From IMG/VR virus record IMGVR_UViG_3300020471_000620, positions 1 to 32,312 of that record: a stretch of 32,312 bases of DNA. One strand, given 5' to 3'. Position numbers and translations under genes: made by a program. This document shows positions 7,301 to 26,500 of this stretch, piece by piece. This DNA is from a virus. Within the stretch, counting starts at the first letter, position 1. Each line of letters opens with the position of its first letter. The notes under the pieces were generated by a model. It saw only the letters and a program-made list of their open reading frames with translations. It was not told where the DNA came from and did not search any database.

Positions 7301-8839
7301 GACTTGGTATAAAGTAATTTGAGTAGAATTGTTAGAAGATGTGTATGCGAATCCTACAGCATTACTATTCTGTCCTTCAATGTATGCTGGAAGAGGTACA
7401 GTTGTGCCTGTATTTAATTGTAGATATGTGAATGTTTGAATATCATATAGAGATGATTCAAATACTGTAGAAGAATCAGCATAGCCAACATTCTTTAACT
7501 TCAAATCATAAACTCTAGCAACACCAACTTGTGTTCCGTTGCCTTCTCCAACAGTGACTGTTCTTTTGTTGAATAAGTTGACATGGGAATCAGTCCCAAT
7601 ACCAATAGGTGGCGAACCACTTACATGGTTAAGTTCTACTTGTCTACCCACACTAAATGGTAGAGATTCATTCTTTATTTTTTCAGTAGTACGAGGTTTG
7701 GGAACGTCAACTGTTGTAGTGTTGATGGTTTCTATTTCATATCCCTTGACATATGCTTTTCCTGGCCCAATAGATAAACACATGAAATCATCTGAAGGAA
7801 CGTTTCCTTGTTGTGTTAATTGAGATGAATAGTATGCACCATCATTTCCAATTCTATTGTTTAATTGTTCTTTAGGAACTATTGCGAATGGCTTGATATA
7901 ATAGTTTCCAGACTCATCAAATGTTCTTCTTGCTAATTCATCATTAATAACTTCGTCAATCTTAGTTCCAGATTTTACAAACTTTTTGAGAATACCATTT
8001 TCAACTCTCATCAACTCTACAAAGTTCTCATCATTTAGATCGGTGAGCGACTTTTTAATTAGGGTTGTAGATAGTTTGAATCTATCAGCACCAGGCGCTG
8101 CAAAGTTTGAGAATCCTCTTGCATTATCATATAGATCATTATCTATTGCAGATGCTGTTATAAGTTCTTCTTTAACTAGAAGTCCTATTCTGTATGAAGG
8201 AGTATCACCATACTGATCTAAAATAACTGTAGAGTCAGAAACAGTTACAAAGAAACCTCTAATGAAATAAACACCAGAAGCTATCTTTGCAGCAGAACCA
8301 GTAGCAGTTGAACTTGAAATAAGCGTTGTAGCAAAACTAGAACCAGATCTAATACTTGATAGAGAATAGTTCATATCCTCTTCTAGTAATAAGTTCTCTC
8401 CGTCTGCAAATGTCTTTCTTGAAAAATCAGAATCACTAGAACTCTGATATTTGATGTATAAAGTATATGCTCCTTTTACTGATTCTCTATTTGTAATATA
8501 TGTTTCTACCTTAGCAGTAACACCACTAGTCTCTCCTCTAATTTTTTTACCTTTTAGAGTCTCCAAGTAAAGAGATACTGGAATACCCAAATGGCTATCG
8601 TCAATCTGAACACAAGTATATTCGTTATCATATGCAACTTGGCCAGGAATTACGACAGCACCTTCTTTAAAGAAATGCTTACCAAATTTTTCAACCTGAT
8701 TCTGTAGAATAGATTGAAGTGTAGTAAGTTCTCTAGACTGTACAGGTAAGCCTGGTTTGAATAGTACCCTTTGATAGTTTTTTAACTCATTAAAATCATC
8801 AAAGTACGGAGATGAATTTAAGTTGGTATTCTGTGGCAT
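1322..8839 (-). CDS. Giant DUF4815-type virion structural protein (2,505 aa)
   Basis: The N-terminus (from SSPYFDDFNELKNYQRVLFK through PVQSRELTTLQSILQNQVEK and HFFKEGAVVIPG, residues about 9-67) matches the conserved opening of DUF4815 phage structural proteins. These are common beside the baseplate genes of T4-like cyanophages and in other large phages. The middle is beta-rich, with SAGSGF and GGTGY modules. At residues 1672-1682 lies DPLAQSFEVPD, followed by an 'FITKCDVYF' strand and a lectin- or jelly-roll-like segment. Around residues 2110-2145 is a 'VKIGNEIIKYTG' module shared with the gp7 homologue. The C-terminal 150 residues (VNMITVMDRINSK, FRIDAPPQYQLFELFPG, IKIIMSGTN) also look family-specific. 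It is probably a baseplate-rim or fibre-attachment protein; length well above most relatives suggests internal expansion. It starts six bases after gp8, with a GGAG about 12 bases upstream of the ATG. A remembered family resemblance supports the call; no enzymatic motif was seen. Confidence 0.8.
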   Translation of the reverse strand: MPQNTNLNSSPYFDDFNELKNYQRVLFKPGLPVQSRELTTLQSILQNQVEKFGKHFFKEGAVVIPGQVAYDNEYTCVQIDDSHLGIPVSLYLETLKGKKIRGETSGVTAKVETYITNRESVKGAYTLYIKYQSSSDSDFSRKTFADGENLLLEEDMNYSLSSIRSGSSFATTLISSSTATGSAAKIASGVYFIRGFFVTVSDSTVILDQYGDTPSYRIGLLVKEELITASAIDNDLYDNARGFSNFAAPGADRFKLSTTLIKKSLTDLNDENFVELMRVENGILKKFVKSGTKIDEVINDELARRTFDESGNYYIKPFAIVPKEQLNNRIGNDGAYYSSQLTQQGNVPSDDFMCLSIGPGKAYVKGYEIETINTTTVDVPKPRTTEKIKNESLPFSVGRQVELNHVSGSPPIGIGTDSHVNLFNKRTVTVGEGNGTQVGVARVYDLKLKNVGYADSSTVFESSLYDIQTFTYLQLNTGTTVPLPAYIEGQNSNAVGFAYTSSNNSTQITLYQVNGQFQVGEEIFINGVTASRSITEVEDYGMEDVKQLVGNDPTNYKFSADAVLNLGHLLAPVATQYTISAKSGAASTITSPSANFANIGIKTGDIIQYSVSGNTVPTFNSVTAKTSTSISLEAISDVTNVCSGALPSADTTVNDLFKVTLEVKNNSKAFLFSDLTKNNVASVDTNGADLIIKKSYNVTVASNAFSGTLETDADLTLEPFDEEDYNLTFKTTGVVEPLTNQKLTVSGRTVTLSGLDTASGAAVLTVTWKKVNVKPKSKVFKRATTYTINKSSKTQSGTGLMKLNDGLTYNTNYGDRVQDRRLSLGVCDVAYVLAVLESSTTSDPQFPVLQLTNLNSNILNALQGEAMVGKTSGASAIFVSTNGTNEVDFVYQNENTFEIGEEVTFEETNVQGIVQTFIPGDRDIRNNFTFDPGQRLDYVDFSALERKQGSEAPTRRLTVVYNNYVIDASDPGDFVTVNSYDSSVYSDSLPTVGGRYASDIIDLRPRVTSTVAGRAPWEFSARQFVPGSSSSSHIVAKDKSFNLTYNYYLGRIDKLFLSKEGIFTLSQGVPSDIPKLPNTIDNALEVATIQLPPYLYDTREVGLTLAKYKRYRMKDINQLENRLKNVEYYASLSLLEVETGSMSLKDPQTNLDRFKSGFFVDNFKSVTGGDVTSRNYKASIDAVDGRLRPQHYTTSVDLLLGTEAIVGAATSSNPSADFRYAEDLGDTNVKRIGDVVCLNYTDTVYLENKFATRIVNVNPFAVVNWIGQVELNPATDTWIETRRTSATYDIEGSFNSTMGITGADSNTGLSPIDWGSWETTWTGSSSTFGPTIYSDTRTKLTGSSTVRGKFVKMRGIPITTTKDFLDTKTDFREQTTVTTTNQTRQGIQFRVGERFDTTSLGDKVVNTEVIATMRSRNIEFVTRRLKPNTRLYPFFDSIDMSKYVVPKLVEITMVSGTFGAGEIVEGSRPNSNNDAIRFRLANQNHKYGPYNNPSQVYKQNPYDPASTISSTYSSTTTILNVDTASLELQSASGFYGYITTGMKLIGQSSGAIATVTAIRLITDKSGTLIGSLFLPDPTVPSAPTFNTGTKTFTLSSSSTNATISGFTDSSGEANFTASGTLQTVEASTLRMRNADVQRIPQSADRTLSDTDTRLTVDQTFTNRSTTQTRWVDPLAQSFEVPDINGVFITKCDVYFQAKDTNQLPVTLQIRTLKIGLPTQEILPFGECILDPDEVVVSEDGSAATTFTFPAPVYCEGGGEFALVLLSASNEYFVYISRMGEEDITTVNAADSEKIIVSQQPLLGSLFKSQNGATWDPSQLEDLKFNMYRANFTQSEGRVNFYNPDLDIGNRQIVSLAPNPIDMLAKSAVIGLGKSLTSAEQAGLTEGTTIYQQANPNFSANLTKVLGAIGVGSDLTITSAGSGFAATSVVYSGVPLVSQFGRGSGATVNLTVSNRVATAATVAIGGTGYAAGDVLTVDASNTGGFGKDLLLSIPNNVGVISAFNTLVIDNIQGVPKVDSSSSIVYVGGGGTSVVNGGAINFINNIADGLHFRVRHSNHGMYSQSDLVTLSGVESDIKPEKITSTIDSSSTEDITVTSIGIFTSFENVEVNNSNPGYVKIGNEIIKYTGVTTTTSTLNNITRSMDDTKAGDYNINDKVFKYELNGMSLRRINTSHKFLDSNLSQYPIDVDHYWVKVGVSSRGVDRGTGNASGFPEIFFNETKSGGSYDQQYVQVGVPYGPMATQNIPFNIVRPNVATLLPEGTNINARIRTFSGNSPDGNLTAFVDQGYEEVSLNSNNYLSTPRIIASKQNELDKLVDFEGRKSFTLQTFLKTEDSKVSPMIDLDRVNMITVMDRINSKISDYATDRRVNSIDQDPSAAVYLSKVVSLEKAADGLKVMFDAYRHSTNDIRVMYRIFRIDAPPQYQLFELFPGFDNLDSEGRVIDPAKNNGRPDRRVLSSSTESDFKEYEFNASNLPQFNGFQIKIIMSGTNFAYVPKIRDLRAIASI

Positions 8840-8845
8840 TTGCTT

Positions 8846-10441
8846 TTAAAACTCCAGCACTATTTTAATGTCTTCCTTCTGACTAGCAGATCTTGGGATT
8901 GCAGTTCGATTATCAATGTAAATAATTTCACCCGATTTGGTATTAAATTCTGCTGATGAAATACCAGCACTAAAAGTCATACCTAATTGGTAGGTCTTAT
9001 TATTTATTGAGGTACTGACACCGTTGTAACCAGTATCAATAGATAACATTGAACCGACCACAGAAGATCCAGTAATTGTAACTCCATATCCAGCATCAGG
9101 AGTAGAAGTAAATGGAATTATCTTGTATCCAGTTTCACTAGATGCAAGACCCATTGGTTGATAATACTTCAACACTCCAGTAACTTTATCCCATGAAGCT
9201 ACATATCCTATCGCAGTCGATCCCAAACCTACTGTTTGAGTAATTTCAGAATCAACAGCATAGGTTGTCGCTGTAGTAACTCCACTCAATTTTACTGCTT
9301 TTAATCCACTAACCATGGCAGTGTCTAGTAATTCTGTACTACTACCAAATACAGTGGGATTTTTTATTAATCCAACTCTAGCAAAATCATTACCCTCTAT
9401 GATATCAGGGTTAGTTTCTAGTGTTTCAAATCTAGAATATAGTAAAGCTCTATATGCACCTAACTCTCTATAGATGTCATATCCATGTCCACCTTTAGGT
9501 GGGATAATTACGCTGAACCCTGCATTGGATGTTGTTCCTATTCCAGTATTGGTAAGGTTAGCAAGAACACCGCCAGACTCAGAGCCAGGAGCGCCTGGGA
9601 AGAACTGTATTGATCCGTGAGTGTATCCTTCTCCTCCGTCAGTAACAAATACCTCAGATACCTTTCCGAAAGAATCAACCGTAATAGTTGCTTTTCCTCC
9701 TGTTCCATCTCCCAAAATCGGAACATTAGCAAAAGATGTAGAGATCGGTTGATAGTTAGAACCTCTATTATCAACAATAACAACTTCAATTTTACCATCT
9801 ATAGCGTTAGCCTTTGTTGCAACAGTCTCGCCTTCATTTCCCCAGTTTTCGGGCACTGGTATGTATTCAATAGAGTCAAATTTAATGATTTCGGATGGTT
9901 TAATCGTATAAAGATATTTCCAAACGTAACCATCGCCACTAGTGCCAGCTGCTCTTGGCTCAAGGTCAACAAATGTGGGTTGGTCATATGAAGGCCTACC
10001 CTTGGGGTTCTCAGGGTCTGATCCATTTTGGAGACAAATGTAAACTTTCAAGTCTTCATTTACTATGTAGTAATTTGCTTCGTACAAACTACCTTGTGAA
10101 GTAATTGGTGTTAGATTGTAAATATTATAGTCATGTCGGTACATCTCATAGGTAGTACCAGCAACCCATGATACTTTTCTAACAAGTCTACGAACATCCT
10201 TGTCAGTCACTTTCTTCATAGCAATGATGGATTCTTTGATAGAATACTCCTCTTCAAATCCATCTAAAGGTGCAGGGGTGTTAGTAGGCCATGTGGCAGT
10301 ACCGCCTGCCTTTGGTTCTATGGAATTTGGTAGTCCCATGAACGCATAGTATTTGTTGACAGTAGATCCGACTCCGACAAAACTCTTTACAAAAGTCTCG
10401 GCATTTAAAATTCTAAACTGTTCGGATATTATAGCAGGCAT
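8846..10441 (-). CDS. 8: Baseplate wedge subunit gp8 homologue (531 aa)
   Basis: This is the T4 gp8 family, a dimeric wedge component that joins gp6, gp7 and gp10 in the baseplate. The key evidence is GDGYVWKYLYTIKPSEIIKF at residues 169-188 followed by EYIPVP, matching T4 gp8 GDGYVWEYLFEI and EYIVVP as remembered. Further on, GHGYDIYRELGAYRALL (about 318-334) fits the gp8 segment beginning GGHG. T4 gp8 is about 334 residues, so this protein is some 200 residues longer. Part of the excess is a beta insert at about 217-282 with two glycine-tyrosine hairpin motifs, RGSNY and DGGEGY, of the same type as in the giant neighbours. The ATG at 10439-10441 has no Shine-Dalgarno; it follows an A-rich/ACG/T-rich leader after a CTAAATA motif. 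It lies between the two giant genes, in the T4 order 6-7-8 but with two genes inserted after gp7. Confidence 0.9.
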   Translation of the reverse strand: MPAIISEQFRILNAETFVKSFVGVGSTVNKYYAFMGLPNSIEPKAGGTATWPTNTPAPLDGFEEEYSIKESIIAMKKVTDKDVRRLVRKVSWVAGTTYEMYRHDYNIYNLTPITSQGSLYEANYYIVNEDLKVYICLQNGSDPENPKGRPSYDQPTFVDLEPRAAGTSGDGYVWKYLYTIKPSEIIKFDSIEYIPVPENWGNEGETVATKANAIDGKIEVVIVDNRGSNYQPISTSFANVPILGDGTGGKATITVDSFGKVSEVFVTDGGEGYTHGSIQFFPGAPGSESGGVLANLTNTGIGTTSNAGFSVIIPPKGGHGYDIYRELGAYRALLYSRFETLETNPDIIEGNDFARVGLIKNPTVFGSSTELLDTAMVSGLKAVKLSGVTTATTYAVDSEITQTVGLGSTAIGYVASWDKVTGVLKYYQPMGLASSETGYKIIPFTSTPDAGYGVTITGSSVVGSMLSIDTGYNGVSTSINNKTYQLGMTFSAGISSAEFNTKSGEIIYIDNRTAIPRSASQKEDIKIVLEF

Positions 10442-10474: not shown

Positions 10475-13400
10475 TTAAGTTAATGGTTTCTTTCTGGAAA
10501 CTACAGGAGCGGTAGATAATCCAGTATTACCATTGTTTGAATTGACAAAAAATTCTTGTGGATTTCCAGAAGCACGGTTCTGATATCCAAAGATTTTACC
10601 CCAACTATATTTACCCCAGAAAGTATCAGTAGTTGCCGTAGTTGCAACTCCCACTTGAATTGTGTTGTTTCCATAAGGTGTAGGGCCTGGTTGGAAAGCA
10701 CATGTAACTGTAACCAAACCAGAGATAGCATCACCTGTTGTGATCTGTTCAACTCTGAACACACCACCAAGATAATCACCAGCAGTTACCATACCGACAG
10801 CTACATTAGAACCACTGGATGTAGTAATACCAGTTAAGGCATGACCAACAACCAATGAACTATCATAGATTGTAAAGTAGTCTCCCTGTTCCAGTCCACT
10901 AAAGTTAACTCCTAGATCGTTTAGTGAAGAATAACCATAACCTAAGTTAGTGTTGTCATTATACTGAGATTTCAATGTAAATGCTAACTGAGGAAGTCTA
11001 GCACCAGAGCCTGGCAACCATGTATTTATTCCTACAATATCACCAAAGTCTCCTTTTGCGTCTACTGATAAAACATTTTCTCTTGTAGTTTTGTCAGTTT
11101 GAACAATTACAGGAGGTGAACTACCAACATCATAACCAAATCCACCATTTGTTATTGTGACACTGGTTAGGATGCCTCCAGTAACTGATGCGGTAGCTGT
11201 TGCTCTGTTAGTAACAGGGTCAGCGTAGAATGTAGTAGTTCCAGAACCAACAGCGATAACTCTGCGACTTGCAAAATCACCAAATGGTGTATCTACAAGG
11301 TCACGAATTTGTTGTGAATGAGATACTGGTCTTTCATTCCAGTTAGCCAAATCGAATGAATAATACAATCCACCGACTGTACTGATTCCAACGTAGATAT
11401 TATCAATATACTTAATTTTAGCAAAGTCAAATGTTGCAGGGTGTTGTGTTCCAGCAGGCAACTGTTGACTCCAAGGTTGCCAGAAGTTCTTATCAGTAGA
11501 AATACCAATAGTACCACTATCACCAACAACAATGAATCTATCACCATCATAGATGATATCATTAAGATCAAAGACGGTATTACTTGTTTTATCTGCCCAA
11601 CTTGATCCATCATTTGAAGCAATAATAACACCACCATTACCTACTGCAATGTATTCTGACTGACCATAACAAACTGCATTTAGTTGTTGTATAGTTCCTG
11701 AGAACTGACTGAATGCTTCTGCTGTTGTGAGACCAACGGCAGTAAATATAGATCCAGCAGCTCCAACTGCAACCCATGTATTTCTAGTTCCTTCCCAAAT
11801 AACATCTTGGAAGTTTTCTGTATATGTACTATCAAATGTACTTATCTGGTTAATTGCTGGAATCTGTCTTTGTTCTTTTAGATCTATTGCAGTCCATGTA
11901 GACAGACTATTACCGATTGAAACTGCTCTTGCCATAGATCCATAATCACCAACAGCCATAGCGTAGACAGTAGACGTTCCACTATTACCTACACCAACAC
12001 CATTGAAAGTTACAGTTCCACCAAATCCAATTCTACCTCTCTCCCAGAATGATCCACTCTTAGTGTTCATGTAAAAACTACTTGAACCAACAGCAATTAT
12101 TGGTTCTTCTTTAGTTAATGCCTTGAATTCCACAGCAGATGTAATACCAGTAATTGCATCAAACTCCCATGCCGATATTGGATCTTTACGTTTAATTAAT
12201 GCACTTGATATAGCCACATTTGGAGAACTGAGGTTAATATAACCTGTACCACCAAATCCTATGGATAAAGCTGAGATACTGGATGATGTAGAAACAACAG
12301 ATGTAACAAGTCCAGGCAACACTTCCGTATCATCAAATATCTGAACATTTCTTTCTGACTGAACTAACTTATCAATGGCATTGAATACTGGGAAAGCATT
12401 ACTTACATAGATTACGTCATCAGTCTTACTTACATTTTTGATCAGTCTAGTTGTAGGTAGAACACGACTCTTCAAACTAGGTCTCGCTTTAGAGATTAAT
12501 ACACCAGATAAAATTTGGTCATGTCTCTGTTTTTCCCATGCAAGAGGTCTATCTGCATCTTGAGCAGTGTTGATTCCAATGCTGTTGTATGTAAATGTTT
12601 CAAGTAAATCAGAAGCAACAATCCTCTTACCAGTTCTCTTGAACTGATCTACGTCATCATTGACAAATCTATTTTCTTTTATTTGTACAGTGTCACCAGC
12701 CTTCAATGACTGTGCTGGTTCTACAGTTTCAACATCTCTCTTTGATCCTCTAAAGTAGAATACAGAACACTTAGAATTTGCTTTTGGAGCTTCACTAAAG
12801 ATAACTCTACTACCCTTGAATATGTAAGATGATTGTGGAGTCTGTAAAATATCATTGATGTAGATAAAGATATTGTTTGTAATATCCATATCGCTTCCAG
12901 GCGGTGTCTTCAAACTTAATATTTCAGTGTTACCACTTGTTGTTACAGACAAAGTAAACTTAGTACGTTTACCATTAAAGAAGGGAGCAATGTCATCAAA
13001 GAGTATGAATTGGCCAGGATAGAATCCAGAGAAAGTATCATTCTCAAGTTCTTCTATAATGAGTTGGAACTCAGTATTTACACCCACTCTTGGGTCTGTA
13101 GCAATACCAGAAACTGTTAGTCTGTCACCAACTTTATATGCGGTTCCCTCTTCTAATAAACTAAACTCTGAAATATTACCATCAACATTGATTCTGAAAT
13201 CAAGTTTAGCATTTGTTCCTATACCAGTGGTGCCCGAAATATATTCTATGTCTCTATTGAAGTATGGATCTGGTTCTGTGACATCAACAAATACTGGTTT
13301 GGTAACTTGACCACCTCTCTTGTATAGAGAGAATTCAGTTGTCAGTCCAGCATCTACTCTAAATCTTGCATTGTCAATTTTTTCTATAACATTGAAACCA

Positions 13401-16400
13401 GAGTATCCCTTCTCTATAGAAGATGCAATTCTCTTACCCTGTTGTGAAAGTCCAGCTCTTGCATAGTTGTGATCTACAGTTGAAATACCAACGTTAACAA
13501 CATATGTTTTACTGTCGATTATCTTATCTACAAAAGTTCCACCAGCAGCAAAGTCAGTTCCACTAGGAGAATTATTATTAAGTCTGGGAGCAAGAATAAC
13601 ACCTTGAATCTTACCACCAGAATTATAGAAACTAGGTGTGGTGGATGGGCCTACTTGTGTTTCGATAGTAGTGTTATTGATAACTCTAGTGATCAGTGAA
13701 CCATTGTAATATGGATCTCCTCCCTTTGGATAGAACTGTTTTGTGGCATAGTTATCTTGAGAACATGAGAATAGAATTGACTCATCTTTTAATTTAACAT
13801 TTCTACCAACACCAGCTGCGGTTGTGATTCCATGAACTGCTGGTAAGAAGGCAGTCATGATACCAATAGACTCATTATAATCTGCATGATTGATGTTATA
13901 TTCTACTCTTGTAGAAACACCGACATTAATAGTGATGTTGTTAGATGTTACAGCAGTTGGATATAGAGAGGTATTGTGGGCAGGGTCAGTCGTTCTTGGA
14001 TATGGATGTTCAGATGCATATTGATCCATAGCACAAGAGAATACAAAAGCGTTAGTTACAAGTCCAACAGCAGTTGTAGTTGTCTGTCCGTGAGCGGTGT
14101 CAGTTGTAAATGTCGCTAATCCACTATTTGCATCATATGTGGCGTTAGTTACGTTGTACTTAACTCTAGATGTAATACCAACATTCATTGTGAATGTATC
14201 AGTGGTAGTAGTGACAATACCGATTTCTATGTTGTGTATCGGATCAGTAGTTCTTGGATATGTGTGATCTGTTGCATAGTTATCCTGAGAACATCTCCAT
14301 GTGTATGAGTTCGTTGCAAGACCAACAGTATCTCTAGCAATTAACATACTATTGAGTTCTGCGTTTTCAAATGTATGTTTGTAATCGCCACCACTGATAA
14401 CAGAATCAGCAGATGCAGATACAAAGATGTGTTCAGACTGATTAGATGACTTACCTACATCCAGTGTAATAGTAGTATCTGTTGTAGCAGTAATCTTAAC
14501 AGCAGTATTATAAGCAGGGTCTGGGCCAGATATGCCACTTGCCCTTGGGTAGAAGTGATTTGTCGCATGATTATCTAAAGCACAAGTAAATTTGAATGCT
14601 CTTGTTTTGAGTCTTACAGATGTTCCTTTTTGTAATGAGTGTGATCCAATGTCTACAGTCATCAAACCAGTAAACGGATCAAAAGATCCACTTGTAGGAC
14701 TATGATAAACGAGAGGTGATGTTCCTACATTTACACTAAACTTATCAAGATCAACAGTAGTTACAGACAACCAATTTTGATCTGCTGGATCTTTTCTTCT
14801 GGGATAATCTTTGATAGTTTTTCTTTGATCCATCATACATCTGAATCTGATGGAACCTCTTGCAAACTGAACTCTATTACCAGTTACCATTCCATGATTG
14901 GGAACTGTACAAGTCATAATACCAGATCCAGCATCATAAGTTGCAAATTCTACACTCTTGGGTAAAGCACCATTGAATCCGTGAACATTAGAGAACACGG
15001 TCATGATACCTGTGCTTGCAGTGTAAGCTGCAGTAGTAATACCGTAGTTGACTATTGTAGATACACCAACGTTGATTGTTATGGTATCGGCAGATGTGGA
15101 ACCAATACCAACAGAAACATTGCCACCGATTGGATCATCAGGACGAGGATATGCGTGTTCTGTTGCGTAATTGTCTCTAGCACATGTGAATCTTATGGAG
15201 GCAGTGTTAATACCAACAGTGTCTCTTGCTTTCTTAAGACCACCAGTAGTCGCACTTTGGAACCAGTGTGCATTTACAATAGTAGATACACCAACATTTA
15301 CAGAGAATGTATTGACACCAACATGATAAATTGGTAGCCACTTATTCAAGAATGGATCAGAGTATCTTGGATATGCCTTAGTTGCAGTATATCCATCTAG
15401 ATCACATTTGAATGAAATTGATTCTAAGTCAAACTTGACATACTCACCAGCAACAAAACCATGATTGGATATGGTTGGTTCTAGTACACCAGTACTAGCA
15501 TTATACGTTGCCGTCGAAATTGTATGAGATGAGTGATCGTAATAAGAGTGTCCAGCACCTACATTCAGTACAAGTTCACCTGTACCAGCATTGTATGTGG
15601 ATGTTGATATAGAACGTTCCTGTATTGTAGAAGGCCCTACTCTTACCTCAAAAGTATTTGTGGTTGCAGAAACTATTCCCAAATTAGTATTATATGCTGG
15701 GTCTGTAGGACGAGGATAAGCATGAACAGTTGCATAATCATCTTTAGCACACTTGAAGTTCAAAGAACCAACTGCGATTTGAACCTGTTGAGAAGGCCTT
15801 TCTACAGCATTTGCAACTGATGTTTGATACCAGTATGGAGTGTAGTCTCCACCACCAGTAATGACTGCATCTGTTCCAATACCAGATAAAGTATATGGAT
15901 AGTCACCACCAGCTATAACTCCTTCTACTGCAACACCTTGATCAGGTAAGAATAGATATGTATTCGCCCCAGCAGTGGCTCCTACATTAACAACAAATTC
16001 AGTACCAGCAGCACTAACAAGAGTGACTGGTTTATTATAGTAAGGGTCTTGTGGTCTTGGATAGAAATGATTACTTTGGAAGCCATCCTGTTCACATTTG
16101 AAAGCAACAGATCCAGCCTTAAACTTAATAGATTCGCCAGCAGTAAAACCATGCAATCTATCAAGAGAAACGGTCATGATACCCGATGCTGGTGTATAAC
16201 TAGCAAATCTAATATTGTATTTGACTATTGTTGAAATACCAGCGTTGACTGTAATGGTTGTTCCAGCAACTCCTATAATTGGAACAGCAGTATTGTAAGT
16301 TGGATCTTTTGATCTTGGATAATACTTGATTGCAGTGTTTTGGTCGGCCTCACAAGTAAATCCTAATGAACTATTTCTAAACTTAATACTTTGACCAGTG

Positions 16401-19400
16401 GCAAGATCATGAGTTCCAATACTCATAGTCATAACACCCACAGAAGGTGTATAATCTGCTCCAGACACAGTATAATCTACTCTGGTAGTGATACCAGCAA
16501 ATACCTCAAAAGTGTCAGTTGTTTTGTTTGATATTGGAACCCAGTTGTTGCTTAGAGGGTCTGTAGATCTTGGGTAATATTTGGTTGATGTAAATGCATC
16601 TAATGAACATTTCCAACCAATAGAATTATCTGCAATTCTAACCATATCACCATTTGAAAATCCATGGCTAGGAACGGTGATAGTTAGAATACCGACTATC
16701 GGGTTATAATTTGCGGTTGTGATTGAATGTTGTGTAGGGCCTGTTAAACCATGACCATTAAGAGTTAGTATTAATGATCCAGTGCTAGGAGTGTAGTCAG
16801 CATCTGTAGGTGTGATTTGTGATCCACCAACTATTTGAACAGCGTTTGTATCTGCACTTACAAATTGGTGTGCATAATCACCACCAATCTTGATTGTTTT
16901 CTCATCAGAACTTACATATGTGTGTGGATAGTCACCACCAGCAAATGTGGATGTTGCGGTTGCACTGTGGAACTCATGTAAGAATGGGCCACCAGTTAGT
17001 AATGCACCTTCTTCTGCACGAAGGAATTTGTGAGGATAATCTCCACCATATATGATTGCTCCATTAACTGCCTCTTCAAATCTATGAACGTATTGATTCT
17101 TGACACGAGATATACCCACATCCATTGAAAGCCCAGTGCCAGCATATCCTGTAATTGGAATGGAAGTATCGTATGCAGTTGATCTACTTCTTGGATAGTA
17201 ATGATCTTTTGCACCATTGTCTATGGCACATGTAAATGCAAGACCAGTTAGAATAACATCTTTACCTACCTTGTAGCCATGAGGTGCGGCAGTAGTGACA
17301 GTTAGAACTCCAGTTATATTATCATATAACGCACTAGAAACGCCTAGGGCAGGGTCATAGTCGCAAGTAAATGCAATACCAGAAAGAACAACACAATCAT
17401 CTTCTGTAAGATTATGATTTTTTCTTGTGGTAACAGTTGCAATACCAGATCTCTCATCATACTCAACATGTCCAACTTGAACAGCAGGAGCACTTGTAAA
17501 TGTGACTGCAATACCTGTTGCTTGAATGAAATCATCAGTCTCTAGTCCATGACCTTCAAATTCTATAAATGAACCAATACCAGATTGTGCAGTGTGTATG
17601 CCAGTTGTTGTCATGGCAGCACCAATATTCACGGTAAAGTTCTTTGCACTTAAAATGCCAGTAACTCCGTAATATTTTTGTGAATCTGATGGAAATGTTA
17701 TATCTCCAACGTTAGTATTGAATTTAACGCCAGCTAATTTTATTACACTTGAGGTTGTTAATCCGTGAGAAGCTGCAGCATGAATAGTTGCAACACCAGA
17801 GAATGAATCGTAATCTAATTCAGATATGTTTATACTTGATCCAACCTGATCACCAAAAGCAGTGATAGTTGTAATTCCATTTGAGGGAGTTTGATCTAAG
17901 AAACTTATATCTTTTGGTATGTAGAACCCAGTTCCTCCTTCCACAATACTAAAGTTTGTAATAATACCAGCTTCCGCTCTGTTTATTACACCACCACTAA
18001 CATATTGATGTTCAAAAGTTGATATACCAATAAATGTTTCAATCGTATTTGTCGTAACTCCTAATACATCAAAACCTATGACATTTCTACCTTCCATGAT
18101 GGCAGTGTCAACACCAGCACGAACAGTTCCGCCTCCCTCATAGGATAAAGGTTGTGTGGCGATGCCTAAGTTGACTAGGACGTTAAGACTATCAATAACT
18201 TCTGTGACAGGATAGGCGTCCTCTCTGAGGGTATATGTGGATATACCATCACTTACCTGAATACCCTGAAGTAATAAACTTCTACTTTGGTTTTCCCCTA
18301 CACCAAGATAGTGTCCACCAGTTACACCAATGGTTGCAATACCTGAGATGTAATTAAATCCAAACGTGTTAATATTTCTTGCAACAGATACTGGGGTGAA
18401 TGTAAATCCAGCACCTGTAATTCTTACTCGATCATCAATTTCAAATCCATGAGAAACTGCACCTGTATTGAATGTAGCAATACCAGATATATGATTGTAA
18501 GTTGCAGTTGATATTGCAACACTAGATGTGCTAGAAACCCCTAAGAAAGCAGTAATACTTGCACCATATCCTTGAGTGGATCTTACGCTTATTTCTGGTA
18601 TTGATCTGTAACCCTGTCCTTTACCTTCTATCTGTAAAAATTCAAGACTACCAGTTGTACCTACACCAACTCTTACTGCAGCTTTGGTAGGTAAGTAATA
18701 TCCAGCTCCTGTTTGTAGTCCAACTTTACTAATTCTTCCCGCTCTTGGAACACCACTTAGGAAATTAATTTTATTTGTATCTGAATCTACTATCTCAAAA
18801 TCAAGGCCTGGTGTTTGAACAATATTATTGATTAATATAAAAGGATTATTGTTTACATCTACTCCTGTGTTGACTGAGTTGTAGAGAGCAGTTACAACAC
18901 CTGTATTTTCAGACAGTGTGAATTGAGTTCCAGCAACACCTGTAAAATCTAGTGATATATCATCTAGTATTACGTTCTTATCTTTTTCGTCAAAGGGATC
19001 TAATTTTCTTGAAAATAATCTACCAGAAAATGATGATCCTGTTTCTAATCCAACAGGGCCAGATTTTCCATAAGGTGCGTCTGTGAAAAATATATTATCT
19101 TTGACAATGTTATAATCACCAGCAAAAACAGAATATGCAATACCAGCCGCATGACCAGCCTTTTGTGTACCAAAAGCACCTCTCTCTACAGCAATTTCAG
19201 AAGATGAAGATGTACTAAAAACTGGATAGTAACCCAATCCAGATTTGAAGATTATAACTTCCGATATAGTTCCAACACCACTAATTACAGGAAAAAATAC
19301 TCCCTCCGTTGTTGGATCGGATGTTCCTTCAATTACAATTTTAGGTGGATCTGTTTTTGCATAACCTGACCCTCCATTTAGAACTTCTACAGAACTAACT

Positions 19401-19462
19401 CCATAGAATGAATCGAAAGTTGGTTTTAGGAGGGCTCCTGATCCAGGCGTAGTCCTTGGCAT
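10475..19462 (-). CDS. Giant repeat-built virion structural protein (2,995 aa)
   Basis: This is probably a long baseplate-attached fibre or tail-tip protein. Region 1 (about 1-330) is beta-rich, with NGGSGY and KSGLGY hairpins and an ILINNIVQTPGLDF module near 205. Region 2 (about 330-745) has repeats of the type HG...V.L.G..F (HGFEIDDRVRITG, HGLTTSSVIKLAG, HGLETDDFIQATG, HNLTEDDCVVLSG). Region 3 (745-1913) has twelve longer units, each with C-x2-D-x7-Y-P-[RK]; the tyrosines are at 756, 963, 1048, 1134, 1249, 1364, 1438, 1553, 1638, 1735, 1821 and 1911. Seven GGDYPH-type mini-repeats are interspersed. Region 4 (about 2130-2400) is a conserved-looking beta domain with IYINDILQTPQSSY. Region 5 (about 2458-2745) looks like a beta-propeller: WVAVGAAGSI, YIAVGNGGVIIASNDGSSW (Asp-box-like) and FIVVGDSGTIGIS. 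It starts 13 bases after the 340-aa gene, with a good GAGGG ten bases before the ATG. Structural role is well supported by context; the exact position in the virion is inferred. Confidence 0.8.
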   Translation of the reverse strand: MPRTTPGSGALLKPTFDSFYGVSSVEVLNGGSGYAKTDPPKIVIEGTSDPTTEGVFFPVISGVGTISEVIIFKSGLGYYPVFSTSSSSEIAVERGAFGTQKAGHAAGIAYSVFAGDYNIVKDNIFFTDAPYGKSGPVGLETGSSFSGRLFSRKLDPFDEKDKNVILDDISLDFTGVAGTQFTLSENTGVVTALYNSVNTGVDVNNNPFILINNIVQTPGLDFEIVDSDTNKINFLSGVPRAGRISKVGLQTGAGYYLPTKAAVRVGVGTTGSLEFLQIEGKGQGYRSIPEISVRSTQGYGASITAFLGVSSTSSVAISTATYNHISGIATFNTGAVSHGFEIDDRVRITGAGFTFTPVSVARNINTFGFNYISGIATIGVTGGHYLGVGENQSRSLLLQGIQVSDGISTYTLREDAYPVTEVIDSLNVLVNLGIATQPLSYEGGGTVRAGVDTAIMEGRNVIGFDVLGVTTNTIETFIGISTFEHQYVSGGVINRAEAGIITNFSIVEGGTGFYIPKDISFLDQTPSNGITTITAFGDQVGSSINISELDYDSFSGVATIHAAASHGLTTSSVIKLAGVKFNTNVGDITFPSDSQKYYGVTGILSAKNFTVNIGAAMTTTGIHTAQSGIGSFIEFEGHGLETDDFIQATGIAVTFTSAPAVQVGHVEYDERSGIATVTTRKNHNLTEDDCVVLSGIAFTCDYDPALGVSSALYDNITGVLTVTTAAPHGYKVGKDVILTGLAFTCAIDNGAKDHYYPRSRSTAYDTSIPITGYAGTGLSMDVGISRVKNQYVHRFEEAVNGAIIYGGDYPHKFLRAEEGALLTGGPFLHEFHSATATSTFAGGDYPHTYVSSDEKTIKIGGDYAHQFVSADTNAVQIVGGSQITPTDADYTPSTGSLILTLNGHGLTGPTQHSITTANYNPIVGILTITVPSHGFSNGDMVRIADNSIGWKCSLDAFTSTKYYPRSTDPLSNNWVPISNKTTDTFEVFAGITTRVDYTVSGADYTPSVGVMTMSIGTHDLATGQSIKFRNSSLGFTCEADQNTAIKYYPRSKDPTYNTAVPIIGVAGTTITVNAGISTIVKYNIRFASYTPASGIMTVSLDRLHGFTAGESIKFKAGSVAFKCEQDGFQSNHFYPRPQDPYYNKPVTLVSAAGTEFVVNVGATAGANTYLFLPDQGVAVEGVIAGGDYPYTLSGIGTDAVITGGGDYTPYWYQTSVANAVERPSQQVQIAVGSLNFKCAKDDYATVHAYPRPTDPAYNTNLGIVSATTNTFEVRVGPSTIQERSISTSTYNAGTGELVLNVGAGHSYYDHSSHTISTATYNASTGVLEPTISNHGFVAGEYVKFDLESISFKCDLDGYTATKAYPRYSDPFLNKWLPIYHVGVNTFSVNVGVSTIVNAHWFQSATTGGLKKARDTVGINTASIRFTCARDNYATEHAYPRPDDPIGGNVSVGIGSTSADTITINVGVSTIVNYGITTAAYTASTGIMTVFSNVHGFNGALPKSVEFATYDAGSGIMTCTVPNHGMVTGNRVQFARGSIRFRCMMDQRKTIKDYPRRKDPADQNWLSVTTVDLDKFSVNVGTSPLVYHSPTSGSFDPFTGLMTVDIGSHSLQKGTSVRLKTRAFKFTCALDNHATNHFYPRASGISGPDPAYNTAVKITATTDTTITLDVGKSSNQSEHIFVSASADSVISGGDYKHTFENAELNSMLIARDTVGLATNSYTWRCSQDNYATDHTYPRTTDPIHNIEIGIVTTTTDTFTMNVGITSRVKYNVTNATYDANSGLATFTTDTAHGQTTTTAVGLVTNAFVFSCAMDQYASEHPYPRTTDPAHNTSLYPTAVTSNNITINVGVSTRVEYNINHADYNESIGIMTAFLPAVHGITTAAGVGRNVKLKDESILFSCSQDNYATKQFYPKGGDPYYNGSLITRVINNTTIETQVGPSTTPSFYNSGGKIQGVILAPRLNNNSPSGTDFAAGGTFVDKIIDSKTYVVNVGISTVDHNYARAGLSQQGKRIASSIEKGYSGFNVIEKIDNARFRVDAGLTTEFSLYKRGGQVTKPVFVDVTEPDPYFNRDIEYISGTTGIGTNAKLDFRINVDGNISEFSLLEEGTAYKVGDRLTVSGIATDPRVGVNTEFQLIIEELENDTFSGFYPGQFILFDDIAPFFNGKRTKFTLSVTTSGNTEILSLKTPPGSDMDITNNIFIYINDILQTPQSSYIFKGSRVIFSEAPKANSKCSVFYFRGSKRDVETVEPAQSLKAGDTVQIKENRFVNDDVDQFKRTGKRIVASDLLETFTYNSIGINTAQDADRPLAWEKQRHDQILSGVLISKARPSLKSRVLPTTRLIKNVSKTDDVIYVSNAFPVFNAIDKLVQSERNVQIFDDTEVLPGLVTSVVSTSSSISALSIGFGGTGYINLSSPNVAISSALIKRKDPISAWEFDAITGITSAVEFKALTKEEPIIAVGSSSFYMNTKSGSFWERGRIGFGGTVTFNGVGVGNSGTSTVYAMAVGDYGSMARAVSIGNSLSTWTAIDLKEQRQIPAINQISTFDSTYTENFQDVIWEGTRNTWVAVGAAGSIFTAVGLTTAEAFSQFSGTIQQLNAVCYGQSEYIAVGNGGVIIASNDGSSWADKTSNTVFDLNDIIYDGDRFIVVGDSGTIGISTDKNFWQPWSQQLPAGTQHPATFDFAKIKYIDNIYVGISTVGGLYYSFDLANWNERPVSHSQQIRDLVDTPFGDFASRRVIAVGSGTTTFYADPVTNRATATASVTGGILTSVTITNGGFGYDVGSSPPVIVQTDKTTRENVLSVDAKGDFGDIVGINTWLPGSGARLPQLAFTLKSQYNDNTNLGYGYSSLNDLGVNFSGLEQGDYFTIYDSSLVVGHALTGITTSSGSNVAVGMVTAGDYLGGVFRVEQITTGDAISGLVTVTCAFQPGPTPYGNNTIQVGVATTATTDTFWGKYSWGKIFGYQNRASGNPQEFFVNSNNGNTGLSTAPVVSRKKPLT
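13724..17230 (-). repeat. Protein-coding repeat array, twelve C-x2-D-x7-YP[RK] units
   Basis: Within the 2,995-aa gene, each unit reads roughly [FW]xC, two residues, D, seven residues, YPR, then xxDPxYN, a variable strand, VGxST and AxYxxxxGxMTxxxxxHG. All twelve copies keep the Cys, the Asp and the Tyr-Pro at identical spacing; the last unit has Lys instead of Arg. Tyr-to-Tyr distances are 207, 85, 86, 115, 115, 74, 115, 85, 97, 86 and 90 residues. Units of 115 carry one extra half-module of about 30 residues. A degenerate unit with CDYD but no YPR precedes the array near residue 697. Confidence 0.85.
16860..17050 (-). repeat. GGDYPH mini-repeat cluster
   Basis: Four tandem copies of about 20-24 residues each lie between repeat units 1 and 2: GGDYPHKF, GGPFLHEF, GGDYPHTY and GGDYAHQF, each followed by a short acidic or serine-rich strand. 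Three more scattered copies (GGDYPYTL, GGGDYTPY, GGDYKHTF) occur further along the protein. Similar strings recur in cyanophage structural proteins, from memory. Confidence 0.75.
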
Positions 19463-19475
19463 TTAATCGTTTCCC

Positions 19476-20498
19476 TCAACTAATGTTAATAGAACTGCTA
19501 CAATAAACTCTGGTAACACCAGTAGCGTCTCTTATAATACTAAACGTTAATATATCCTCGTTTGATGTCGCTGGCGGAGGATTACCACCAACCCATTTAA
19601 CTCCATTTGCTATGGAAGCACCATTGACTGTAGTTGTATCACCGTAAGTATATCCAACTCCAGCATTGATGATAAGTGTGGTTGTAGTCGCTTTACTGTT
19701 CTGACCACTGACATTAGTAAATGCCCATGAAGTAATGGATGTTGTTGCAACACCACATACTACAGATCCTTGTGAAACATCAACGGTGAACGTACCGCCT
19801 GCACTTACAGTCAAGACATCACTGAAATTTCCTACAACTTTCTCTGTAATATCAGAGTTGAAGTTGACCTGATCTGTTAATGTGCTTGTGCCACTGACTA
19901 AAATATCACCCTTAACATCCAATCTACATGTTGGAGCGGTAGATCCTACACCACAATATGCTTCGTTGGTAACTACAAATGACTTATTATCACTTACATC
20001 TTGATCAGATACTCGGAATCCATGGCCATTACCTTTCGCAACTGCCCATATAGTTGGTCTTTGGTTAGAGAAAGATGCAACTTCTAGTTGTGAAGTGGGT
20101 AATGATGTTCCGATGCCTACCATACCGTCCGCTTTGATACGGAACATTGTTGCAGCAAAACCAACTTCTATTGGCCCATCTGTAATCGCACCAGGCTGTT
20201 GAATTGTAATTTTACCGACATCTGCATAACTTGTTGTTACAACACCAGATGTATTGATATCAATGTTATCTGTGACACTTGCTGCAAGACCAGCAAGGAC
20301 AGATGTTGATGCAATACCACAGTTGGTGGAATATCCAGCAGTGCTAGCAAAAGAAACAAAACTTACAAGATTAGTACCGTCTCCGAACTTATCGTATATC
20401 TCGTTAAAATTATTATTGATCTTAATAGTCCCTGCCAATAGGGTATCGCCCGTCCCATCATTGGGAGCCGAACCAGTACTAATCCCTTGTTTAGCCAT
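19476..20498 (-). CDS. Short fibre-like protein with gp10-type N-terminus (340 aa)
   Basis: The first 42 residues (GISTGSAPNDGTGDTLLAG, IKINNNFNEIYDKFGDGTNL) closely resemble the start of T4 gp10 as remembered (NIGNVVDDGTGDYLRKG, IKINENFDELYYELGDG). In T4, gp10 forms a trimer whose N-terminal part joins gp7 at the wedge tip. The rest is unlike gp10: a fibre-type segment (MVGIGTSLPTSQLEV, then RLDVKGDILVSGTSTL) and a beta-rich C-terminus with AGVGYTYGD and VKWVGGNPPP. At 340 aa it is well short of T4 gp10 (about 602). It follows the gp7 homologue behind a perfect late promoter, so position agrees with attachment through gp7. It could equally be a tail-fibre protein that borrowed the attachment motif. 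The gp10-like start is well seen; equivalence to gp10 is inference. Confidence 0.75.
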   Translation of the reverse strand: MAKQGISTGSAPNDGTGDTLLAGTIKINNNFNEIYDKFGDGTNLVSFVSFASTAGYSTNCGIASTSVLAGLAASVTDNIDINTSGVVTTSYADVGKITIQQPGAITDGPIEVGFAATMFRIKADGMVGIGTSLPTSQLEVASFSNQRPTIWAVAKGNGHGFRVSDQDVSDNKSFVVTNEAYCGVGSTAPTCRLDVKGDILVSGTSTLTDQVNFNSDITEKVVGNFSDVLTVSAGGTFTVDVSQGSVVCGVATTSITSWAFTNVSGQNSKATTTTLIINAGVGYTYGDTTTVNGASIANGVKWVGGNPPPATSNEDILTFSIIRDATGVTRVYCSSSINIS

Positions 20499-20527: not shown

Positions 20528-23500
20528 TTAATATGGAGGGTTATCATCCAAAGTCACCGAAGTATCGGAAACTTTAATAACTGTTGAGTTAGATCTGTTA
20601 GTATCATAGAAGAAATCATTAGCAACAGTATTTTCGATTTCTGCTGTTCTTGCATTAACAAATGTAGAATCTCCTATTTGTTTAACCTTAACAAATTCAT
20701 CATCTAATCTAAGAGTATCTCCTTTAGATAATGATCCGATTCCAGCACTGATAGTTATAGTTTCTGTACTGATACCAACTGCTTCAGAGACTGTAACCTT
20801 CAATCTCTTATTAGTTAGAGGAGTCTGAATTATATTATCAACCATAATCAGAGCCTGTTTGTTAGGTTCTGTGACTGATAACTCATGAGTTCCAGTTCCT
20901 AATGAAGTAAAGTCAAATGGTAATGATGTAGAGAATCCAGCAAGTCTGAATTTCAAATCATCTACTTTCTGAACAAACATCATGTCAGGCATTTTGTCTG
21001 TACCACATTCTACAGGAGATAATGTAATATTATCGCCTGGAGTTACCCCACCTATGTATGTCCCTGCAATAGAGATTGTATTGGTAGTTGCATATCCAGT
21101 TCCACCAGTAACAACACTCACACCAGAAATATCTAAGTTAGCATCTCTAGTTACATTGAATGTTGCTCCCGATCCACCACCATCATTAGTAGAAGGAATA
21201 TTACTATAAGTTGTTTCTATTCCAACTCTTGATCCTGTTGTTTTAGTTACAGGGAATGTCAAGTTGTTTGCTGGAGTTGCACCACCCAGATATGTGCCAG
21301 CAATACTTACGTTATCACCCACGATATAATCTCTACCACCATTGATCAGAGTTACAGCCGTAGAAATACATTGTCCAGTAGTTTGATCAAAGTCAAACTT
21401 AACTTGGAAGATAGAACCACTACCACTTCCTCCTGTGCCAGGCACACCTCCATCTGCATTTCCAAATCCATATATTCTGAACAAAGCGCCTGGAGGATTT
21501 TCTGTTACAGCAGTTCCTGTTACAGGGCCTGGAATTTGAACATTATATCCATTTTCATACATTGCACTTCCACCAATACCAGATGTCACAACAGACATAA
21601 CAATATCCTTAGTGCCTGTAGTATGAGATGTGGTTGCAATACTAATCCTATCACCACCTTGAGTATCCAACACAACTGGCTGTCCAGTTTGGAAATCATG
21701 GTTTTGTATCTGTATGACGTTAAGTAAAAGATCTACGTCAGTAAACACTCCAGAAGCTGCAAATGATTTTTTGAATACTGGCTTTCCACCAGTAGATAAT
21801 TGGAACTGTTTACTACCAACTAGAGTTCCTGTTCTGTCATGAGTACCATTGAAACCATTAGAGATATCATCTAAATTCAAGACTTTATTAGTCTTGTTCA
21901 TAATGAAACTCTTGATTGGTCTACCTTCTGGGAAGAATATTCTTTGAACTGACCCATCAGGTAAAGGATCATCTTCTGTAACTATAGCAAAGTTATCTCT
22001 CTTACCCATGTACATATCATTGTCAATATTTAAAATCAAATCAACCTTAATATCAGCTGGTTTAACTTTCATATTGGTGGACTTAGCAACTCCTACATTG
22101 GGGGCATTTGCAATAGGATCACTCTCTACAATGAGGTCTGAGAACTCTAAGAAACCTGATGGGTGAACAATAGATTTTACAGACTCTTTCCATGTTGTAT
22201 ATGGTAACTTACTCTTGATTGAATAAGAGAATTTTTGGAAGTAGAAGTTATCTGATATTCTTTGACTGAAATCATTAAGAATACCAATATTCATGTCGTT
22301 TTTAGAAACTTTGTCTCTAGTAACGCCTAAAGTAGTGTTAACGCTAAACTTGTTTACATCTCTTACCTCACCATTCAATTTAGAAACTTCACCAAACAGA
22401 ATATCACCAGATGATAGAGTTCCTAAAGTATCTCTAAGTCTTAATTGACTGATATTTCCATTCCAACCATTTTCTGCTACAAATCCTTCAAATTTAGTGG
22501 ATGTAACTTTTTCACCAGATATGTATTTGGCATCATCAACGATTAACATATTAAACTTAGCCATATCGTTGAAGTTGACGATAGATCCCAATGTAAAGTC
22601 ATCATCATATTCACCTAGTGTTACTGTTGAAATACCAGGCGCAGATGCCATACTAAACTCTACAGTTGCGTTTGAAGTGTTTACACCTGTAACTGTGTAG
22701 AATGAAAAGTCATAATCAGCAGAGTTAAAGTTTCTTTCTCCAGCAAGAATGGAATTAGGCTTTAATCTACAACCTTCAATGAATACTTTATCACCTATTG
22801 CAAAAGGTAACTTAGTTTCTGTAGATGCAAACCCAGTTGTGACTGGAATGTTAAATTGTGCGTCTAATAACAATTCAGCAGTAACTGTAGTACCACTATG
22901 AGTTATAGCGTCTATATCATAACCATTTGAGTTATCAGTTGTAATAATACTCAAAGGTTCTTTAAATTCAAACGCATTTTTGATTATTTCCACTCTATCA
23001 ACAGATCCACCCTCTACATGAGCTGCAATTTTAACATTACTGTTACCACGAACTGCAAGAGTTGGAGGTTGGTTATATCTTCTTCCACCATCAATTACTT
23101 GGATCTCAGATATCCTAGCAATACCACTTATATCGACAATAGCGGGTACACTTAAGAATGGAAGTAAAGTTGGGTCAGTTGGATAATCAAATCCATCTTT
23201 TATTCTCTCAATAAGATCAATCTTACCAATATCAGGAGAAGATACTTTTACAATAGCATCTTTACCCTCTGCACTTGCAAAACCAATCACTCTTGGTAAA
23301 ACAGTGTATCCTCTGCCTGGGAAGTTTATTTTTGTTTTAAAGATAGGGCCTTTAGCAGTTTCAGACGTTGTGCTGTATGTAATCGTACTAACACCAGTTC
23401 TGGAAATGAACTTTTGAGATTCTAGTGGTCTTTCCTTCAAATTGAAGGTAAAATTAGTATCATCGGTTTTTATAATAGAATGTTCATTTCTAATTACGAT

Positions 23501-26500
23501 ATTATTGAATGTAATATTGTTTCTACCAGTTACCTCAGTGTCAGATGATCCAAATGTCTTTCTGGCATCAGAAGGAACCACAGGTGTAAGATTATAGAAG
23601 CTTTTACTTGGCCAATCAGTGTCAGTCTTGATAGTTACCGAAGCATCAGCGTTTCCAGAGACACCACTTCGGGAAATATTAAATCCAGTGGCATTAGTAC
23701 CACTAACATCTAGTTTTTCTGTAAAGTTAAGGTCTGCAAAGAAGTCTAATTTCATATCTAACAAACTTTGGTCAGATACGTCAAAAGTAATCGTATTACC
23801 AGTCGTAAATGTCAAAGGTGGATTTATCTTAGCAAGATAACTTAAGTTATTGGCACTCGCTGTTGTTACTGTTGATATGGAGACAGGGTTAGAGTCAAAT
23901 ACGTCAGATTTGTACTTACATAGTTTTATGAAGTCAGTATTTTCTCTAAGAACAAAATATGTCTCATTATTAATTAATCCGTTGATTGTATTTCCATTAT
24001 CGTAGTAAACAACCTTATCACCATTCTGTAAATCATCATCATTGATGTTTATTTCAGTTAGATCAGCAGAAAAACTTGTATATGTGAATCCTACTCTTTT
24101 TGTAGTTACTTTAGCAAGAACTGGGTCATATCTAATAATTGTAGATTCAGTAGATTTGGGTAAGGCATCTATTGTAATTAAATCTCCAGTTTCTAGGCCG
24201 TGATCCGATGCAACTCCAACAGTTCCGAAAAATTTCTCAACTTTGGAATTTACTTTGTCAAATGTGGTTGCTAAAGAGTGTGCAAATCCAGAATTAGACG
24301 CAACATTGTAGAACCAAACAGCATCACCAGTTGTAGGGAATCCAAGAGTCGCTATACCAATGTAATCTTGTTCAAAGTTAATAGCATATACATCTCCATC
24401 TGGTAAAACCTCAGTTCCAACACCAGATGTTGCACCAGCAGCTACTTTTGCCCAAACAAGAGATGTTCCACCAATTCCCATGTTGTAAACAAGTTTTTGA
24501 CCAGTAAAGAACTTGTGATCTTTGATATAAATTCTTTGTTGTGGTACAAATCTATTTTCTATGGTCTGTACTGTGCTTAATCCTGTAAGTGGTAGTGTAT
24601 AGTGAGTTCCTGTAGAACCAACACCAACTGTTTGTTGTGGATTGAAGTAAGTTATATAATTTTCAAAAGTAAATCTCGTTACAGTAGAATTTCCAACAGG
24701 GAAAGAGAACTTATTGGGTTTCAGTATAACATTGTTAGTTCCAGCTGCATGAGTCATAGCAGCACCAACAAAGTTTTCCCTATTTACAAATAATCTAGAA
24801 AATCTTTCATCGACTCCAGTAACAATGAATTTTTCAGTTCCAATACCAATAGTGTCACTAGGAGCAAATCCTCTTACGTCAGTAACAAAAATAGATGTAC
24901 TTACACCAGTAGCTGTAACATCATCTAAGTAAGTTGCCAATCCTACAGATCTACTTTCTACTGAAACTTTTCGAGTTCCATTGAACTCTGTAAACTGAGC
25001 AGTGTTTATACCGCTTATGTGTATAGTTTCACCATCAAGAATATCATGTGGTTCTGTAGTAACACCAATAATTTCTTTCTTGTTTAATCTTAGAGTAGTA
25101 TTAATAAATGTCGATATTCCTATCTCTACTGTATTGACATCCTTTCCTAGTATTTCACTTACTACAATATTTGCACCACCGCCATCAGTTCCCCTATTGT
25201 CTAAGGTTAGTGTATCATCTATTTTGTAGTTATCACCTTTAGAAAATACTGTGACAGATGTGATACCAGCACTCCTAGTTTTTGTAACCTCAAACTCTTG
25301 TTTCAGAGAATCTCTAACATCATCTATGAGTTCATAATCAGAATTACCAAACGTTAGATAATATGGAGATATATTTCTAGTAAGATTTCTAGAGATAATA
25401 TCAATGTCTTGATTAAAGAAAGTTACGAAGTTTTCTTCGATTGGAGTGTCTTTGAATTTGTTTCCAAGTAGATATGGGTATTTTGGTTTAGCAATACCAC
25501 TAGAATCAATATCAACACTGTAGAAGTATGCGTATGTTCCATCAGGGAACTGTGGAGTAACACAATACCTACCACCGAACTCGTCTAGGTCTCCAGAGTT
25601 GTCAAAGACATAATCATTAACAAAGTATCCAAATGCAAAGCCAGGTGGTCTTAGACCAGATAATATGGCAGTATTGAGAATATACCCAGACTGCAATCTT
25701 CTGATAGCTCCACCATCAGGATTCTGATAACCATAAGGGCCATATATTGGATTACCATCATAAGCAAATCCCAATATTGGAGAGTGGAAAGCATTAGGTG
25801 TTTCTAAGTTACCAGAATCAATGTTATCTCCAAGTTGATATCTCAACTTTTGTGGAGGATACATTCCTATAGTTTGTAATTGATATTCTGGGTTTGTACT
25901 TGGTTTAGTTAATATAGAATCTTCTACGTTTATAATATTTTCATTTTTCTGAACTTGATTTATTTTCCACTCTTTTACATTACCAATAAACTTGGCGAAT
26001 CTACCTCTGTTTCTTAAATCTAGAGTCGTATCACTACTTGCATATCCAACACCACCATCTAGGATCTGAACACCTGTAATTTTATTATTACCAATGATAG
26101 GTCTAATATCAGCAAAGCTTCCTGTAGGACTGTATATGATGATGTCAGAGTCTTGTCTGTATCCCTGACCTGATGCAAGAATTTGAACATCTACAATAGA
26201 TCCATCAATAATAATTGGTTTTAAAAGAGCTGGGAATACAACAGTTGAAATACCAACATCGGGTCTTCTATGGAAATCCATGATATTGGTACAACCATAA
26301 CCAATACCACCATCTTCTAGATAGACGTTATCAACAGATCCCAAAACTAATGGATCTATTTCTGGTTGTATAACAGTTGTGCTACCAATAGCAGATAAAC
26401 TTTCAATCTTTACTACTATAGGTGGATACTTTATAGTATGTTTACCAGCGCCCAAACTGCGAATTACAGCTGTTTTATTTTTGTCATAATTTGTAAGATT

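Follow-up and report, generated by a model that had tools for sequence, protein, structure and literature searches.

The closest described counterpart of the gene studied here is SSSM7_103 of cyanophage S-SSM7 (ADO98169, E3SL21), which is annotated as "gp7 baseplate wedge initiator". The gp7 megaproteins of P-SSM2 (PSSM2_111, 5195 aa) and other Kyanoviridae carry, in their C-terminal part, the cysteine-containing unit that is our subject, and their C-terminus matches our gene. The unit is present in a large number of giant baseplate and tail proteins of the Kyanoviridae, which rank among the commonest viruses in the sea. Profiles that include the repeat exist as PHROG 1276, 5342, 701 and 2885 (for example, three stretches of PHROG 1276 fall in units 2-4 of the array listed below); these clusters represent whole proteins (their labels are unknown, tail fiber, virion structural or baseplate wedge), and the repeat is not defined in them as a domain. 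We found no description of the repeat in the openly licensed literature. The unit has no Pfam model above cut-off and no sequence-related solved structure, with PDB sequence searches returning nothing for the whole protein and only a 13-bit match to LptA (E 0.44) for the repeat profile.

The sequence we analyzed, called the window, is an IMG/VR record of 32,312 bases whose large genes are all on the minus strand and in T4-like baseplate order. They are, with the evidence for some of them in brackets:

31402-31818, minus strand: gp25
29528-31402, minus strand: gp6
20528-29527, minus strand: gp7-like gene with a YHYH domain
19476-20498, minus strand: gp9/10-N protein
10475-19462, minus strand: gp7b, the array-carrying 2995-aa megaprotein of the putative baseplate wedge region (open reading frame; 77% nucleotide identity over 100% to SSSM7_103; PHROG 2885, 5342 and 701)
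19220-19462, minus strand: N-terminal 81 aa of gp7b, common to PSSM4_082 (T4-GC399) and not to gp7 (blastp 45%, E 5e-19)
8846-10441, minus strand: gp8
1322-8839, minus strand: DUF4815 protein

The array-carrying gene, gp7b, lies between gp6 and gp8, as does the gene for the baseplate wedge protein gp7 in T4. SSSM7_103 is its full-length colinear ortholog, in a genome with the same gene order and nearly equal gene lengths; it also has twelve units at almost identical spacings, with a first interval of 208 residues (207 in the window) and a seventh of 117 (115 in the window). Synteny and annotation would thus place gp7b in the baseplate wedge region. The earlier note had assigned the array to an extracellular fibre, which does not agree with the location of the gene in a baseplate operon, between gp6, gp7 and gp9/10-N on one side and gp8 on the other; because of this gene order, and because the S-SSM7 counterpart is annotated as gp7, a free fibre gene is unlikely. 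The N-terminal gp7-type domain (Baseplate_wedge, PF23786) had no match in 10475-19462, so that the likeness of gp7b to gp7 is confined to the repeat and the C-terminal region. In the neighbor at 20528-29527 this domain has a weak match, below cut-off (aa 11-47, E 1.7e-4); the same neighbor contains a clear YHYH domain (PF14240, E 7e-20, aa 1248-1339) and zero Cys units. The DUF4815 family also has matches in Synechococcus elongatus, our control genome.

P-SSM2 has a single gp7 gene, whereas the window has two (20528-29527 and 10475-19462), with the gp9/10-N gene between them. The first 3190 residues of P-SSM2 gp7 match the protein encoded at 20528-29527, and residues 3166-5172 match gp7b. PSSM4_082, which has the N-terminus of gp7b in common, is the P-SSM4 gene between gp9 and gp8. 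The simplest reading of these matches is that the repeat-bearing end of gp7 may have been transferred to, or fused with, a downstream gene. Using tblastn, we identified related repeats in 309 phage records, all of them cyanophages or marine virus records and mostly annotated as gp7 or structural protein, and four scans of IMG/VR gave approximately 300 loci. When 84,980 bacterial and archaeal genomes were searched with a single consensus-like unit triple, no cellular relative was recovered, and we therefore see no cellular source. We also located the unit in further large structural genes (S-SSM7 SSSM7_113, S-RIM44 and Sf-FR1); our loci L004:47615-48154, L069 and L073 correspond to an S-SSM7 "phage tail fiber-like protein" and to S-RIM44/Sf-FR1 structural genes, the latter followed, a few genes downstream, by tryptophan halogenase genes.

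Our analysis of gp7b confirmed the twelve-unit C-x2-D-x7-YP[RK] repeat that had been read from the window: twelve motifs are present, all in the one minus-strand frame at 10475-19462 (aa 745-1913), against 0.00015 matches per protein expected from composition-preserving shuffles of gp7b. The outer ends of the array lie exactly at 17230 (first motif) and 13724 (last motif), and the last motif residue is R in 11 units and K in one. Each of the following was assigned by the motif pattern, with further evidence in brackets:

17189-17230, minus strand: unit 1, CAIDNGAKDHYYPR, aa 745-758
16568-16609, minus strand: unit 2, CSLDAFTSTKYYPR, K/W type (AlphaFold2 model of units 2-4, pLDDT 89)
16313-16354, minus strand: unit 3, CEADQNTAIKYYPR (AlphaFold2 model of units 2-4)
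16055-16096, minus strand: unit 4, CEQDGFQSNHFYPR (AlphaFold2 model of units 2-4)
15710-15751, minus strand: unit 5, CAKDDYATVHAYPR, without a canonical N-terminal half (N-half HMM)
15365-15406, minus strand: unit 6, CDLDGYTATKAYPR, K/W type (AlphaFold2 model of units 6-8)
15143-15184, minus strand: unit 7, CARDNYATEHAYPR, without a canonical N-terminal half, 74-residue interval (N-half HMM; AlphaFold2 model of units 6-8)
14798-14839, minus strand: unit 8, CMMDQRKTIKDYPR, K/W type, Asp replaced by Asn in L016 and L051 (AlphaFold2 model of units 6-8)
14543-14584, minus strand: unit 9, CALDNHATNHFYPR
14252-14293, minus strand: unit 10, CSQDNYATDHTYPR, without a canonical N-terminal half, preceded by GGDYKHTF (N-half HMM)
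13994-14035, minus strand: unit 11, CAMDQYASEHPYPR
13724-13765, minus strand: unit 12, CSQDNYATKQFYPK

The Tyr-to-Tyr distances from unit 1 to unit 12 are 207, 85, 86, 115, 115, 74, 115, 85, 97, 86 and 90 residues. The spacing had been described as quantised, which is true of the distances of 85/86 (four times) and of exactly 115 (three times), but 207, 74, 97 and 90 fall outside both classes. A profile of the N-terminal half showed that most units have one hairpin before them, that units 5, 7 and 10 lack the usual type, and that further elements are present between and upstream of the units:

17363-17473, minus strand: N-terminal half without a complete core, upstream of the array, ending FTC at aa 700 (N-half HMM E 1.2e-7)
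16823-17047, minus strand: GGDYxHxF repeats within the 207-residue interval, aa 806-880 (pattern; sequence)
16742-16822, minus strand: extra N-half hairpin before unit 2, aa 881-907 (N-half HMM E 5e-10)
15803-15910, minus strand: pair of GGDY repeats within the interval between units 4 and 5, aa 1185-1220 (pattern)
15542-15619, minus strand: extra N-half hairpin before unit 6, aa 1282-1307 (N-half HMM E 1.5e-5; strands in the AlphaFold2 model)
14972-15052, minus strand: extra N-half hairpin before unit 8, aa 1471-1497 (N-half HMM E 4.5e-8; strands in the AlphaFold2 model)

The extra half-module proposed for the 115-residue intervals is therefore an N-terminal beta hairpin of approximately 27 residues in two of the three (units 5 to 6 and 7 to 8), and a hairpin also explains part of the 207-residue interval; the third (units 4 to 5) contains a different insert, with GGDY repeats. 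In the AlphaFold2 model of units 6-8 the extra half forms a separate pair of strands. The three units with an extra hairpin, 2, 6 and 8, lie close together in the unit tree and have Lys24 and Trp37 in common; over 592 units, Trp37 is associated with the extra hairpin (odds ratio 4.8, p 6e-10, a value uncorrected for relatedness). Hairpin halves that lack the Cys core also occur upstream of the array, at 17732-17836 and 18395-18526 (aa 313-356 and 543-577), and because of such upstream halves we consider the hairpin a module in its own right. GGDYxHxF is itself a second small repeat of approximately 18 residues, present at 14345-14392 as well as in the two stretches listed, and takes the place of the N-terminal hairpin in units 5 and 10; similar stretches are present in related phage loci. 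The differences in spacing result largely from gain or loss of the approximately 27-residue hairpin: a second hairpin was gained in units 2, 6 and 8, the hairpin was lost or replaced in units 5, 7 and 10, and GGDY insertions lie elsewhere.

The half-modules of the earlier note are thus indeed gained or lost, but its growth by unequal exchange is not supported as an ongoing process: in each of the 41 orthologous arrays that are complete (S-SSM7 and 40 metagenome contigs), the same twelve units follow one another in the same order, and the number differs only between more distant phages. Every unit of the window has its closest match at the corresponding position of the array, both in S-SSM7 and in L038; in 2 of the 41 arrays the motif Asp of unit 8 is replaced by Asn. 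Since all 41 arrays are fixed at twelve units, whereas seven are present in the related Sf-FS3 gene, units must have been duplicated and lost long ago. These data also bear on an improbable alternative, in which the units form a surface for receptor binding and unequal exchange reshuffles these modules so that host range changes. The label of PHROG 5342 ("tail fiber protein"), sub-threshold matches to the carbohydrate-binding Cthe_2159 (in 14 of 65 members) and to an endosialidase barrel, and the variation in unit number between genera (12, 7, 9 and 11) are all in its favor, but the constancy of the 41 arrays and the closeness of units to their positional counterparts show no current shuffling.

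Conservation was examined in an alignment of 603 units, at most 80% alike, from the IMG/VR loci and fetched phage records. Only the Cys and Pro27 are conserved in every unit, followed by Tyr26 (94%), Asp18 (92%), Arg28 and Asp31 (each 91%) and Phe13 (90%). The expectation that relatives would keep both Cys and Asp thus holds fully for the Cys and only in part for Asp18, which is replaced by Gly, Asn or Ser in 8% of units, sometimes with a shorter loop, while the Cys is kept. At position 24, which precedes the Tyr by two residues, 65% of units have His and 29% have Lys; exactly one Cys is present in 578 units (96%). A motif-masked model, itself trained on Cys-bearing copies, found no Cys-less copy among 2179, some of the loci having been fetched by motif-containing patterns. 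Synonymous codons vary (519 TGT and 84 TGC for Cys, 321 CCA and 270 CCT for Pro), so that the constraint acts on the protein, and an explanation at the DNA level, such as a recombination site, is rejected. We also observed a subfamily (L069:11998-12519, L073:13279-13806, L255 and L311) that has C-x2-D-x5-H, but LPS, LPE or APQ(SHHY) in place of YPR; its SHHY stretch is reminiscent of the YHYH family.

AlphaFold2 monomer models of units 2-4 (65 sequences; mean pLDDT 89.0, pTM 0.57) and of units 6-8 (27 sequences; mean pLDDT 81.8, pTM 0.53) are rows of small beta domains, and their pTM values mean that the domains are better defined than their arrangement. A BFVD model of S-SSM7 agrees with the AlphaFold2 model (TM 0.87). 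The Cys site recurs, in that all six modelled units have an equivalent hairpin, in which the Cys ends a strand and is followed by a three-residue helical turn with the Asp and then by the Tyr-Pro strand. Hydrophobicity alternates in phase with the Cys, columns 11 and 13 being 100% hydrophobic and columns 12, 14 and 16 only 17%, 1% and 5%, and because of this alternation we infer that the Cys is on the core-facing side. Our proposal is that twelve small beta-barrel-like domains, arranged in tandem, make up the array, and that the protein carrying them is a second gp7-like megaprotein from the baseplate wedge region of a cyanophage similar to S-SSM7. A full domain would consist of an N-terminal beta hairpin (YxPxTGxMTxTxxxHG) and a core of approximately 58 residues, in which a strand ending in the Cys leads into the short C-x-x-D turn and returns through the H/K-x-Y-P-R strand. 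The Cys side chain would face the core beside Phe (column 13) and Tyr (column 26) and stabilize the C-x-x-D turn, and on the baseplate the row of domains may act as a spacer or offer a surface for binding.

A buried, stabilizing thiol is probably the correct reading of the Cys, and a fold-stabilizing role is the best fit among the three that had been suggested, the others being metal binding and cross-linking. A metal ion held in each unit by Cys, Asp and the downstream His, giving a chain of sites that stiffens the protein, is very unlikely. C-x2-D-x5-H is the commonest form, Asp and His occur together in 379 of 603 units, and the His is kept in 74% of the non-YPR subfamily, but the ligand set is not constant from unit to unit: His is present in only 7 of the 12 window units, the sole conserved His is often Lys, and the Asp is lost from some units that retain the Cys. 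Metal binding is unlikely because these partner residues change while the Cys stays. Disulfides in the mature virion, linking adjacent units or the chains of an oligomer and suggested by an invariant Cys at the hairpin tip of every unit, are also doubtful, since nearly all units offer a single Cys, relatives can have odd numbers of units (for example, Sf-FS3 has seven, with 11 Cys in all), the intervals of 74-207 residues provide no regular partner, and phage assembly occurs in the reducing cytoplasm. The data give no support for regular disulfide pairing. We also dropped a thioester, an isopeptide bond and bilin binding as roles of the Cys, as there is no second invariant partner residue.

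A Cys that is merely packed usually tolerates replacement by Ala, Ser or Val, and its complete invariance therefore leaves room for a chemical role. There is a small chance that the thiol has a chemical function in the virion, for instance in Cys bonds or a shared metal site between gp7b chains, or in a reaction with the host surface at contraction; if so, it would be a new covalent or redox-sensitive baseplate element in abundant marine phages. The Cys is the one firm oddity of the repeat, and it raises the question of why all of the more than 600 divergent copies retain a single Cys when its supposed partners can be lost. The repeat is a widespread, old and fixed structural building block of marine cyanophages, and most likely serves neither metal binding nor cross-linking. 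Expression and structural studies can take a domain boundary from the unit as defined here.

Comparison with solved structures returned no match below E 1e-3 for units 2-4, where FCCH was not seen, and none passing E 1e-3 for units 6-8. Below this level, Foldseek related units 6-8 to the FCCH domains of ubiquitin E1 enzymes (probability 0.98-1.00, E 6e-3 to 5e-2) and to phage endosialidases (E 3e-3, probability only 0.41-0.57). The endosialidase beta barrel (PF12195; phi92 4hiz, K1F), which one related unit triple matches in Pfam (E 1.2e-5), has this sub-threshold fold match but is part of a tailspike enzyme, and to our knowledge it has no Cys motif. The E1 FCCH domain (PF16190; PDB 2v31, 6dc6) is likewise a small beta domain with a weak sequence match (28.5 bits for whole gp7b, under the gathering cut-off of 29.5), but unlike the gp7b units in that this match leaves out the invariant Cys core. 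From these fold and sequence matches, the unit is likely an FCCH-like barrel, by which we do not claim FCCH membership; the repeat itself is real, well conserved and under-described, and is a structural one within a known class of phage protein.
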